45,431 bases of DNA from Clostridia bacterium (GTDB lineage: Bacteria; Bacillota; Clostridia; UBA1212; UBA1255): contig JAGADO010000076.1 in NCBI GenBank assembly GCA_017613535.1, positions 1-45,431 of the forward strand, given 5' to 3'. This document shows positions 23,781 to 28,123 of the stretch, one piece after another. The number at the start of each line of letters is the position of its first letter. Within the stretch, counting starts at the first letter, position 1. The notes below the pieces were generated by a model. That model saw only the letters and a program-made list of their open reading frames with translations. It was not told the DNA's origin and made no database searches. A program made the position numbers and the translations under genes.

Positions 23781-24026
23781 TCATTCGCCAAGCAGCTCAT
23801 ACATGCCGCCCGCGTCTTCTTTTCTTACGTTTTCACTGACCTTGAGCACTTTAAAGCGTGTCTTTCCGGAGCCGAATCCGACTTCGACGATGTCCCCTTC
23901 TTTAACGTCAGCGCTCGCTTTCGCAGGTCTTCCGTTTATAGTTACTCTGCCGGCGTCACACGCTTCGTTCGCGACCGTACGGCGCTTTATCACTCTCGAT
24001 ACTTTTAGAAATTTATCTATTCTCAT
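23781..24026 (-). CDS. rqcP: S4-domain RNA-binding protein, RqcP/YabO type
   Basis: An 81-residue S4 RNA-binding protein: MRIDKFLKVSRVIKRRTVANEACDAG is the S4 core, followed by VTINGRPAKASADVKEGDIVEV. RqcP (YabO) of Bacillus helps RqcH add alanine tails to nascent chains on stalled 50S subunits, whereas Hsp15 is the proteobacterial relative. The gene overlaps mazG by 14 bases. The yabN (MazG)-yabO pair occurs in the same order in Bacillus subtilis, which supports RqcP over other small S4 proteins. Confidence 0.87.
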   Translation of the reverse strand: MRIDKFLKVSRVIKRRTVANEACDAGRVTINGRPAKASADVKEGDIVEVGFGSGKTRFKVLKVSENVRKEDAGGMYELLGE

Positions 24027-24729
24027 TTATGATCTCCCTGTCTACAAATTTTCTGAGCGCCGTTTCGGGGTTAAGCTCCGCTTCTTCCGCGCTCCTCACG
24101 ATCCCGTACAAAAGAATTCCGAGCTCTTCCTCGCTCTCCGGTATCGCAGGCGCTGCTTCCGCCGCTTTCTTTTCGGAATCCGCGATCTTTCCGGTCACCG
24201 GATCAGGCTCTCCGCTCTTTTCCGCTTCCGCCCTCGCCTTTCTTATTTTAGACGCTGCCTTGAATGCCTTGTACAACGCCGGGTAATTCATCGGGATGTC
24301 CGAAAGCTTGCGTTCGAGCGAATCAAATCCCTTTTCCTTCGTCTTCCGCCTGTCCCAGTTTTCAAGCGCTTCGGCGGCAGAAGCGGCAACGTCTTCCCCG
24401 AACACGTGTGTATGTCTGAACAGCATCTTTCTCGCGCACGCATCGGTCACATCGTCAAAGCCGAATTTTCCGTCTTCTTCGGCAATGATGCAGTGGAAAA
24501 TGACCTGAAGCAGCACGTCTCCCAGTTCCTCCACCATTTTAGCATCGTTCTCTTTTTCGATGGCGTCAACAAGTTCGTACGCTTCTTCTACCATAGGTGT
24601 GGTGAGCGTCCTGTGCGTCTGCACTCTGTCCCACGGGCAGCCTCCCGGAGACCTTAGCAATCTTATGATTTCGTACAGATCGCTGAACTTGTATTTCCCG
24701 TCCTCCGGCACGTAATCGTATCTGACCAT
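24013..24729 (-). CDS. mazG: MazG-family nucleoside triphosphate pyrophosphohydrolase
   Basis: A 238-residue cytoplasmic enzyme that hydrolyses (d)NTPs to NMP and pyrophosphate as housekeeping. Motifs are LLRSPGGCPWDRVQTHRTL, EEAYELVDAI and ELGDVLLQVIFH, with the EExxE and ExxD metal-binding residues of all-alpha NTP pyrophosphatases, then KMLFRHTHVFG and a second helix set with NWDRRKTKEKG. ATG 24729 follows GGGAGG by 10 bases, which favours it over the start nine codons earlier. The C-terminal part after residue 165 is acidic and low in complexity. The promoter is divergent from and overlaps that of tadA-luxS. Confidence 0.92.
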   Translation of the reverse strand: MVRYDYVPEDGKYKFSDLYEIIRLLRSPGGCPWDRVQTHRTLTTPMVEEAYELVDAIEKENDAKMVEELGDVLLQVIFHCIIAEEDGKFGFDDVTDACARKMLFRHTHVFGEDVAASAAEALENWDRRKTKEKGFDSLERKLSDIPMNYPALYKAFKAASKIRKARAEAEKSGEPDPVTGKIADSEKKAAEAAPAIPESEEELGILLYGIVRSAEEAELNPETALRKFVDREIINENR

Positions 24730-24750
24730 CTTTTTTATCCTCCCGCGTAC

Positions 24751-24780
24751 TTGCAAACTGACGAGCCGCGCGGTTATAAT
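24751..24780 (+). promoter_or_regulatory. Promoter of the tadA-luxS fusion gene
   Basis: TTGCAA (24751-24756), an 18-bp spacer and a consensus TATAAT (24775-24780). Its -10 box overlaps the -10 box of the minus-strand mazG promoter. Confidence 0.65.
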
Positions 24781-24844: not shown

Positions 24845-25849
24845 ATGTCAAAAGTTAGACATTTTATGGAGGAAGCGCTTTTGGAGGCCCGGAAGAGCCT
24901 GCCGGATGACGTGCCTGTCGGAGCGGTGATAGTGCGGAACGGAGAAATAATTGCCCGTGCGCATAACCTGCGGGAAGCCGGTCACCTGCCGTGCGGACAC
25001 GCGGAAATGATTGCCGCGGGTGAAGCGGCGAAAGTGCTGGGCGACTGGAGACTTTCGGATTGTGACATGTACGTGACGCTGGAGCCCTGCCCGATGTGCG
25101 CGGGACTGATACGCAGTTCCAGGATCAGAAATCTGTATTTCGGCGCGTACGATCCCGAAGAGGGTTCCGTCGGTTCCGTGCGTAATCTTGTGAGCCCCGG
25201 GGCAGGCGTTTTTCCGCTTATTCTGGCCGATGAAGCTTCGGCGATGCTTAAAAACTTTTTCGGGGAACTGAGGGGCAGGACGGAAGCGGAGACAGGCGGA
25301 AAAAGCGAAGAAGTCATTGACGACGCCGGAGATAGCGGCGAAGACGTGATCAGAAAGATCGCCAGCTTCACGGTAGACCACAGATATATTGTCCCCGGAA
25401 TGTACATTTCGAGGATCGACGGAGACGTTACGACGTTCGATATGAGGACAAGGAAGCCCAATTGCGGCGAGTATATGGACAATCTCACCATGCACAGTTT
25501 CGAGCATATGTTTGCAACGTACGTGCGCAATTCTTCGATGGCAGATGAGATCGTTTATTTCGGGCCGATGGGCTGCCAGACCGGTTTTTACTTGCTCGTG
25601 CGCGGAACCCGCGGCGCGCCTCCCGATCCTGCAAAAGTGCTTGATGTGACGGTCGAAACGCTTAAAAAGATCATCGCGCACCGCGGTGAAGTGTTCGGTA
25701 AGAGCGAACAGGAATGCGGAAATTACAGGAATCTCAGCATCGACGCGGCGAAAAAGGAAGCGGAGCGTTTCCTGGCCGTGCTCGAGCGCGGAGAAGTTAC
25801 TTTCAGATATCCGGAGGCGAAGGCTGATCCGGAGACGATTCGGGAGTGA
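24845..25849 (+). CDS. TadA-LuxS fusion: tRNA adenosine deaminase joined to S-ribosylhomocysteine lyase
   Basis: One uninterrupted 334-residue frame holds two complete enzymes. Residues 1-145 are TadA, which converts A34 of tRNA-Arg(ACG) to inosine: HAE (His52, Glu54) and PCPMC (Cys82, Cys85) give the zinc and proton-shuttle residues. A linker at about 141-168 is acidic. Residues about 170-325 are LuxS, which splits S-ribosylhomocysteine to homocysteine and DPD, the autoinducer-2 precursor: FTVDHRYIVPGMY, FDMRTRKPN, HSFEH (His217, Glu220, His221), GPMGCQTGFYL (Cys244) and ECGNY (Cys291). All metal ligands are present. The next gene encodes the preceding enzyme of LuxS. Separate tadA and luxS genes are the norm. 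Confidence 0.94.
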   Translation: MSKVRHFMEEALLEARKSLPDDVPVGAVIVRNGEIIARAHNLREAGHLPCGHAEMIAAGEAAKVLGDWRLSDCDMYVTLEPCPMCAGLIRSSRIRNLYFGAYDPEEGSVGSVRNLVSPGAGVFPLILADEASAMLKNFFGELRGRTEAETGGKSEEVIDDAGDSGEDVIRKIASFTVDHRYIVPGMYISRIDGDVTTFDMRTRKPNCGEYMDNLTMHSFEHMFATYVRNSSMADEIVYFGPMGCQTGFYLLVRGTRGAPPDPAKVLDVTVETLKKIIAHRGEVFGKSEQECGNYRNLSIDAAKKEAERFLAVLERGEVTFRYPEAKADPETIRE

Positions 25850-25853
25850 GATC

Positions 25854-26558
25854 ATGATAGGTATTATAGGGGCAATGAGCACGGAGGTCGACGGGCTCAG
25901 GGCAATGCTTTCCGACAGAAAAGACAGGAAAATCTGCGGCATTAAATTCAGCAGGGGCAAGCTTTCCGGCGCTGACGTGGTTATCGCGCAGAGCGGTGTC
26001 GGAAAGGTCATGGCGTCAATGTGCGCCGCGGCGATGTGCTTCCGTTTTCGCCCTTCCCTGCTTATCAATACAGGTGTCGCGGGTGCCGTCGATCCGACGC
26101 TCAGGATCGGTGATATCGTCGTTTCCGAGGGCGCGGCGCAGCACGATTTTGATACTTCCGCTATCGACGGGACTCCGAAGGGCTGGAACCAGGCGCTCGG
26201 GACGGTCGTCGTGAAGGCAGACGAGGCCGCGGCGTCGGTTCTTATTAAAACCGCTTTGAAAGAAGGACTTTCGGCAAAGCCGGGCATCGTTGTGAGCGGC
26301 GATCAGTTTATTTCGGACAACGAAAAAAAAGCGGAGCTCGCCGATGTTTTCGGGGCGTCCGTCTGTGAGATGGAAGGAGCGGCGATCGCTGCCGTTGCCG
26401 CGTTTAACCGCGTTCCTTTCGTTATTTTAAGGGCCGTTTCCGACGGGGCAGATGCGGATGCGCTGATGGACTTTCCGGCTTTCTGCGAACTTGCCGCCGG
26501 TAATTCGATCAAAGTGCTTTCTTCCGCCGTTCCGGAGCTTTCAGAGCATTACAAGTGA
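25854..26558 (+). CDS. mtnN: 5'-methylthioadenosine/S-adenosylhomocysteine nucleosidase
   Basis: Removes adenine from S-adenosylhomocysteine and methylthioadenosine, producing the S-ribosylhomocysteine used by LuxS. The 234-residue protein has IGIIGAMSTEVDGL, the phosphorylase-fold SGVGKVMA, NTGVAGAVDP, SGDQFISD, CEMEGAAIA with the substrate-binding MEG, and RAVSDGAD with the catalytic aspartate. Start ATG 25854 is preceded by CGGGAG, which overlaps the end of the upstream gene; an in-frame extension to 25686 runs through the LuxS coding sequence and is rejected. A gap of only four bases to tadA-luxS implies one transcript. Confidence 0.95.
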   Translation: MIGIIGAMSTEVDGLRAMLSDRKDRKICGIKFSRGKLSGADVVIAQSGVGKVMASMCAAAMCFRFRPSLLINTGVAGAVDPTLRIGDIVVSEGAAQHDFDTSAIDGTPKGWNQALGTVVVKADEAAASVLIKTALKEGLSAKPGIVVSGDQFISDNEKKAELADVFGASVCEMEGAAIAAVAAFNRVPFVILRAVSDGADADALMDFPAFCELAAGNSIKVLSSAVPELSEHYK

Positions 26559-26590: not shown

Positions 26591-28075
26591 TTACAGCAGT
26601 ATATCGTTTTCGGGGAACACGGGTTCGCACGTAAGGTTTATGCCAAGTTTCCTGATCGTTCCTTCGTCTCCGCTTCTCAAAAGCTGGCTCGAGTGCATAT
26701 CGCATCCTTTTAACTGCTTTAGGTACTGTACAGCCTGTCTTGCGTACGGATTCATCACGGCACTTATCGAGAGTGCCGTAAGGACGTCGTCGAGTTTCAG
26801 GACAGGGCTGGCCGAACCAAGAATGTTATGCTTAAGGTCAAGTATCGGTTCAAGCGTTTCAGGTGTTATCAGCATTATCTCGTCGGAAATACCTGCGAGC
26901 GACTTGATCGCGTTCAGCACGCAGCTTGACGTTGCGCTCGTGAGCTGTGTCTTGCGGCCCGTTATGATGCGTCCGTCTTCGAGTTCTATCGCGCAGGCGG
27001 GATGACCCGAATCTCTCGATTTTTCCATTGCCGCGCCTATTACGCGCCTGTCAGACGAACTGAGCCCGAGCTGCTGCATTATCATGACGATCTTATCGAG
27101 CGGTCCCGGCTTCTCGCGGCCGAGCTTGACCTGGCACGCCGTCTTGTAATAGCGGCGGATGATCTCCTGGCATGAAGCTTCGCGGCATACTTTATCGTCC
27201 GTTATGCAGTACCCGGCCATATTCACGCCCATATCCGTGGGAGAACGGTAGAAATTAGGGTCGCCGGTGATCATCGTCAGTATGTTTTTGAGTACAGGGA
27301 ATGCCTCTATGTCGCGGTTATAGTTTACGGTCGAAATTCCGTACGCTTCAAGATGGAACGGATCGATCATATTAACGTCCATCAGATCGGCAGTCGCTGC
27401 CTCGTACGCGAGGTTTACAGGATGTTTGAGAGGAAGGTTCCAGATCGGGAATGTTTCGAATTTTGCGTATCCTGCGACTCTTCCCCGCTTATATTCATGG
27501 TACAGCTGGGAAAGGCACGTGGCAAGTTTTCCGCTTCCCGGGCCGGGAGCAGTTACGACAACGAGCGGTCTGGATGTTTCGACGAATTCGTTTTTACCGT
27601 ATCCTTCGTCGCTGACGATCGCGCTGACGTTCGCGGGGTATCCGGAGATGCGGTAATGCAGGTAGTGGCGCATGCCGATATGGTCGAGGCGTTTTATGAA
27701 TCCTTCGGCGGCCTGCTGTCCCATATACTGGGTGATCACGACGGCGCTGACAAGTATGCCCATCTCGCTTATAAGTTCTATCAGTCTGAGCACTTCGAGG
27801 TCGTACGTGATGCCTATGTCAGCTCGCATTTTGGTTTTTTCTATATCGGCCGCATTTACGCAGATAACGACTTCAGCCTGATCTTTCAGCTTCTGCAGAA
27901 GCTTTATCTTTCCGTTTACGTCGAATCCCGGGAGCACTCTGGCTGCGTGAAGATCGTCGAATATTTTTCCGCCGAATTCAAGATACAGCTTGTTGTTGAA
28001 TTTGGAGATACGCTCCAGAATGTGACTGGTCTGCTTCTCCATGTAAAGCTCGCTGTCAAAACCGATCTTACCCAT
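26591..28075 (-). CDS. DUF1846 (UPF0371) family protein
   Basis: A 494-residue cytoplasmic protein of the UPF0371/DUF1846 family, which is common in Firmicutes and lacks an established function. Family-like stretches are IGFDSELYMEKQTSHILERI at the start, LYLEFGGKIFDDLHAARVLPGF, VVTAPGPGSGKLATCLSQLY (a P-loop-like GPGSGK) and FPIWNLPLKHPVNLAYEAATADL. ATG 28075 has AAAGGTG upstream and starts the conserved domain, so it is preferred to the start 14 codons earlier. It has its own promoter and is isolated from the MTAN gene by convergence. Confidence 0.9.
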   Translation of the reverse strand: MGKIGFDSELYMEKQTSHILERISKFNNKLYLEFGGKIFDDLHAARVLPGFDVNGKIKLLQKLKDQAEVVICVNAADIEKTKMRADIGITYDLEVLRLIELISEMGILVSAVVITQYMGQQAAEGFIKRLDHIGMRHYLHYRISGYPANVSAIVSDEGYGKNEFVETSRPLVVVTAPGPGSGKLATCLSQLYHEYKRGRVAGYAKFETFPIWNLPLKHPVNLAYEAATADLMDVNMIDPFHLEAYGISTVNYNRDIEAFPVLKNILTMITGDPNFYRSPTDMGVNMAGYCITDDKVCREASCQEIIRRYYKTACQVKLGREKPGPLDKIVMIMQQLGLSSSDRRVIGAAMEKSRDSGHPACAIELEDGRIITGRKTQLTSATSSCVLNAIKSLAGISDEIMLITPETLEPILDLKHNILGSASPVLKLDDVLTALSISAVMNPYARQAVQYLKQLKGCDMHSSQLLRSGDEGTIRKLGINLTCEPVFPENDILL

Positions 28076-28123
28076 AAGAACACCTTTCTGCGGCACATTC
28101 CGCATTCGATCATTCAACTTTGT

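Follow-up and report, generated by a model that had tools for sequence, protein, structure and literature searches.

A TadA-LuxS fusion gene in uncultured clostridia

In a little-known genus of uncultured clostridia, we found a gene in which the tRNA adenosine deaminase TadA and the S-ribosylhomocysteine lyase LuxS are joined in a single frame of 334 residues. This presumably bifunctional protein quite probably arose by merger of two translationally coupled operon neighbors, tadA and luxS. The genus was represented by seven genomes, with the source genome designated G000. All coordinates below refer to the window, i.e. the whole stretch of 45,431 nucleotides that was analyzed. The relevant features are:

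23781..24026, minus strand: S4-domain protein, a neighbor conserved across relatives
24013..24756, minus strand: mazG, the divergent upstream neighbor, conserved across relatives
24845..25849, plus strand: tadA-luxS fused gene, 334 aa, with the same frame in G003 and G005
24845..25282, plus strand: TadA half, residues 1-146, with the zinc/catalytic motifs HAE (H52, E54) and PCPMC (C82, C85)
25283..25354, plus strand: linker, residues 147-170, acidic here and differing in length and sequence among species
25346..25348, plus strand: GTG codon in the linker, approximately at the position of the ancestral luxS start, a possible but weak internal start
25355..25813, plus strand: LuxS half, about residues 171-323, with H217, E220, H221, C244, C291, S174, H179 and R201
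25854..26558, plus strand: pfs (mtnN), MTA/SAH nucleosidase, above cut-off for PF01048 (Pfam) and NF004079 (NCBIfam)
26591..28117, minus strand: DUF1846 protein, a convergent neighbor conserved across relatives, at the far edge of the syntenic block

In the assembly sequence, positions 24845-25849 (+) translate to 334 aa with no internal stop. Pfam assigned residues 1-143 to dCMP_cyt_deam_1/MafB19-deam (97-100 bits, cut-offs 25-27) and residues 171-311 to the LuxS domain (150 bits, cut-off 27). Within NCBIfam, residues 6-148 matched the TadA model NF008113 over its full length with 99 bits, which is below the equivalog cut-off of 150, and residues 170-315 matched S-ribosylhomocysteine lyase with 155.3 bits, just below the equivalog cut-off of 158. 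The closest PDB entries were the tRNA adenosine deaminases 7cph (1.3e-37) and 2b3j (7e-34) for residues 5-149, and the LuxS structures 1inn, 1j6x and 1ie0 (about 1e-15 to 1e-14) for residues 172-311. The predicted structure was usable for the TadA half; the LuxS half, modeled from an alignment without LuxS relatives, mostly remained below a pLDDT of 50.

The first-pass annotation had proposed such a fusion and named two observations that would speak against it: a stop or frameshift between the halves, or the lack of any related genome with the same joined frame. The assembly contains no such interruption, both halves are complete and far above their Pfam cut-offs, and two related genomes, G003 and G005, have the joined frame in the corresponding syntenic position, with 65-67% identity over the whole length. 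The source genome is fragmented (177 contigs, 82% complete, 4% contamination), which might invite the suspicion that assembly or binning created the frame. However, as the assemblies of two other species show the same joined frame and gene order, we reject an assembly error and put the chance of an artefact close to nil. The TadA-LuxS fusion is real.

Catalytic and metal residues are complete in both halves

All nine residues originally highlighted as catalytic or metal-binding (H52, E54, C82, C85; H217, E220, H221, C244, C291) were located as claimed. The four in the TadA half are invariant among the relatives. Those in the LuxS half align to H54, E57, H58, C84 and C126 of Bacillus subtilis LuxS (1ie0), and S174, H179 and R201 are the equivalents of S6, H11 and R39 of that protein. 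According to the residue roles given for LuxS (PMC8233902), H217, H221 and C291 correspond to the His, His and Cys metal ligands, and E220 and C244 to the catalytic Glu and Cys. All of these are present, and the metal and catalytic residues of the LuxS half are invariant in the relatives as well.

The locus exists in three states among close relatives

The fused gene is embedded in a stable neighborhood, as the order and strands of ispF, PPIase, S4, mazG, tadA[-luxS], pfs and DUF1846 are constant among the relatives compared. pfs starts 4 nt past the stop of the fused gene and is the next gene in all relatives possessing the locus. The Pfs nucleosidase produces S-ribosylhomocysteine, the substrate of LuxS. 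The DUF1846 protein (26591-28117, -) exhibits 89-96% identity within the genus, well above the values of the fused gene or pfs.

Apart from the three genomes with the joined frame, G002 has a contig break inside the linker, with both halves open and the TadA frame running about 30 codons beyond the end of the domain. In G001, G004 and G006, luxS is absent at the locus and tadA leads directly into pfs. G012 and G013, from the sister genus, have tadA, luxS and pfs as separate genes in the same locus order and synteny; there, luxS begins within an ATGA that also contains the tadA stop, in a different frame, and its Shine-Dalgarno sites are strong (-8.5 and -10.3). Of the genomes of the order, only those of this sister genus showed tadA and luxS adjacent but separate.

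By identical sequence, G001 corresponds to the deposited Mageeibacillus sp. UBA1255; NCBI assigns the genus Mageeibacillus to Clostridia, Oscillospiraceae. G001 carries a distant LuxS elsewhere in its genome (contig C52, L058) that clusters with the LuxS proteins of a different family in the order and represents either a horizontal gain or contamination. The sole LuxS-type gene in G004 and G006 is a divergent paralog, described below.

The fusion likely originated from an operon with separate genes

The separate tadA, luxS and pfs genes of the sister genus likely represent the ancestral state, and the direction of evolution would accordingly be from separate to fused. We propose that the two genes were fused in, or close to, the ancestor of the genus, starting from a tadA-luxS-pfs operon in which adjacent tadA and luxS would have been coupled by the ATGA overlap, and that a small indel then put both into one frame. 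If the overlap seen in G012/G013 is ancestral, an indel is required, since the two genes lie in different frames there and loss of the tadA stop would not suffice.

In a tree of TadA and Pfs, G000 grouped with G001 and G004 (97/97); the fused pair G003/G005 belongs to the same genus. In the simplest reading, tadA and luxS fused once, at the base of the genus, and the LuxS half was lost afterwards in two or three lineages, although a different sequence of LuxS gains and losses is conceivable. The LuxS tree was mostly unresolved and too poor to prove a common ancestor of the fused LuxS halves, so synteny and identity are the grounds for assuming vertical descent. Between G003 and G005, dN/dS was 0.14 for TadA and 0.18 for LuxS; thus, both halves are under purifying selection. 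At the outset, simple gene merging had been offered as one of two explanations for the fusion, and it is now well supported by the separate, overlapping tadA-luxS-pfs genes of the sister genus and by the constant synteny.

A second, LuxS-like gene occurs in the genus

In the genus, all but one of the seven genomes possess a second LuxS-like paralog (L067/L131 for G000; L068, L069, L070, L071 and L072), located downstream of hisS. In the source genome, it lies outside the window:

G000:C126:12994-13425, minus strand: LuxS-like paralog, with its N-terminal tail truncated at the contig end

The paralog keeps the metal ligands (H, H, C), and the catalytic residues are exchanged (Glu57 to Gln; Cys84 to Ser or Gly). 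Its N-terminal tail contains AT-hook-like repeats (KRGRPRKNPLP, RRGRPPKNK), which matched Pfam AT_hook only below cut-off. The nearest relative, in G017 and G018 and likewise next to hisS on the downstream side, lacks the tail and has the LuxS active site complete. The paralog resembles a LuxS pseudoenzyme whose tail may bind DNA, and it may exceed the fusion in interest.

The domain combination is confined to one genus in the sample

The taxonomic search for single proteins with both domains that had been suggested earlier yielded matches within the genus, but none elsewhere in the samples of the class, the phylum or plasmids. More precisely, searches of 391 class genomes and of 149 and 398 phylum genomes gave no full-length TadA-LuxS match beyond the genus. 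The two phylum searches were limited to E-values of 1e-45 and 1e-60, respectively, thresholds that a full-length fusion should pass and that hide single domains. Likewise, 72,556 plasmid records contained no full-length match, and a search of viral contigs for LuxS gave no match. A literature search in an open library returned no relevant description of a TadA-LuxS or LuxS-Pfs fusion. TadA-LuxS is thus an apparently undescribed domain combination, confined to one genus in our sample.

Translation of the full-length protein

Linker composition had been described as acidic, which holds for this species; the length and sequence of the linker vary among species, and between G003 and G005 alone, 14 gapped codons differ. 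In the linkers of these two genomes the former luxS start Met is still readable as ...GAE-M-EKTEKIEKIASF, and the ribosome site at this old luxS ATG is weakened to -6.3 and -5.8. In the source genome, the GTG at 25346..25348 has a duplex energy of -6.6, which places it near the 10th percentile of random sites.

Ribosomes might therefore also, or mainly, initiate inside the linker and yield free LuxS beside or instead of the full fusion. The persistence of the ancestral ATG in G003 and G005 and the GTG at the matching place here, with energies of -5.8 to -6.6, would fit such initiation, as would the duplex energy of only -6.6 at the tadA start of the fused gene. However, these candidates fall short of the genuine luxS sites of G012/G013 and do no better than about one in ten random positions. 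In addition, the frame through the linker is open in three species even though the linker can otherwise change freely. These internal starts (ATG in G003/G005, GTG here) with their weak ribosome sites may give rise to some free LuxS, but we regard internal initiation as a rather unlikely account of the locus and infer that the main product is the full-length protein.

Function of the two halves

We further infer that the fused protein has both TadA and LuxS activity. The N-terminal half would act as the ordinary TadA of the cell, converting A34 of tRNA-Arg(ACG) to inosine. This substrate tRNA is encoded in the genome, and the only deaminase match besides the fusion in the 82% complete assembly is ComEB/dCMP-like. 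This match was considered and dismissed as a second true tadA, although at this completeness another tadA could be missing. The TadA half probably also edits tRNA-Leu(AAG), an additional inosine-edited tRNA known from Streptococcus pyogenes and Oenococcus oeni (PMC11472039). Among the window genes that were counted, CGC is the most frequent Arg codon, and CTT and CTC are the most frequent Leu codons. As B. subtilis can do without TadA (PMC10454642), we do not assume that it is essential here. The C-terminal half would be an ordinary LuxS that takes S-ribosylhomocysteine, supplied by the product of the adjacent pfs gene, and cleaves it to homocysteine and DPD, the precursor of AI-2. LuxS proteins form homodimers (PMC8233902), and so does TadA (PMC8266599). 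It is plausible that a fusion of two dimeric enzymes with free ends is tolerated. The halves most likely work independently across a flexible linker. If the full-length protein is made, the main consequence would be that a translation enzyme and a signaling enzyme are supplied in a fixed 1:1 ratio.

A more far-reaching proposal, already raised in the first-pass annotation, is that the fusion coordinates methyl-cycle flux with translation. The enzyme would then physically couple wobble-inosine formation to AI-2/homocysteine production, by mutual regulation of TadA and LuxS or by a co-placement that lets the state of the methyl cycle or AI-2 output track tRNA editing, and methyl cycle and decoding capacity would be jointly controlled. 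The fusion has been maintained in at least three species, and purifying selection acts on its two halves, which is compatible with such coupling, as is the linked expression with pfs, which provides the LuxS substrate. However, three congeners retain the tadA-pfs locus without luxS, which argues against an obligatory link between TadA and LuxS, and the linker is not conserved. In addition, to our knowledge the two reactions share no metabolite. We therefore consider functional coupling very improbable, and the original suggestion finds no support. It is also conceivable that the deaminase half does not edit tRNA at all but acts in the LuxS/Pfs pathway, e.g. on adenine or S-adenosylhomocysteine. 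The CDA superfamily does contain free-base and nucleoside deaminases, and the gene shares its operon with two enzymes of S-adenosylhomocysteine recycling; yet the best PDB matches are TadA enzymes and the canonical TadA motifs are intact, which makes this role exceedingly unlikely. Returning to two independent activities in one chain, the separate, fused and LuxS-absent states in close relatives constitute a clean natural series, which allows one to ask whether fusing pathway-unrelated operon neighbors has consequences.

Comparison with known TadA and LuxS proteins

Compared to the TadA proteins of Escherichia coli, B. subtilis (YaaJ/TadA, 7cph) and Staphylococcus aureus (2b3j), the protein described here carries a C-terminal LuxS. 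The loop preceding the last helix of its TadA half is shorter than in known TadA; this is not due to the fusion, as TadA of the sister genus, which is not fused, has the shorter loop too. With LuxS of B. subtilis (1ie0) and Deinococcus radiodurans (1inn), all metal and catalytic residues are matched, and pfs adjoins the gene. PDB chains of LuxS comprise this enzyme only, with 156-194 residues, whereas here LuxS is preceded by a 150-residue enzyme and a linker. The tadA-luxS-pfs triple of G012/G013 comprises the same enzymes in the same order and synteny, but as three genes, two of which overlap by ATGA.

LuxS and Pfs fused in one frame were observed in G014 (L061:5314-6441), G015 (L062) and G310 (L141:894-2096), which belong to two separate families. 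In these proteins an operon neighbor has been joined to LuxS too, but on its other side, with a partner from the same pathway and without TadA. Together with the fusion described here, they indicate that LuxS repeatedly joins its operon neighbors.
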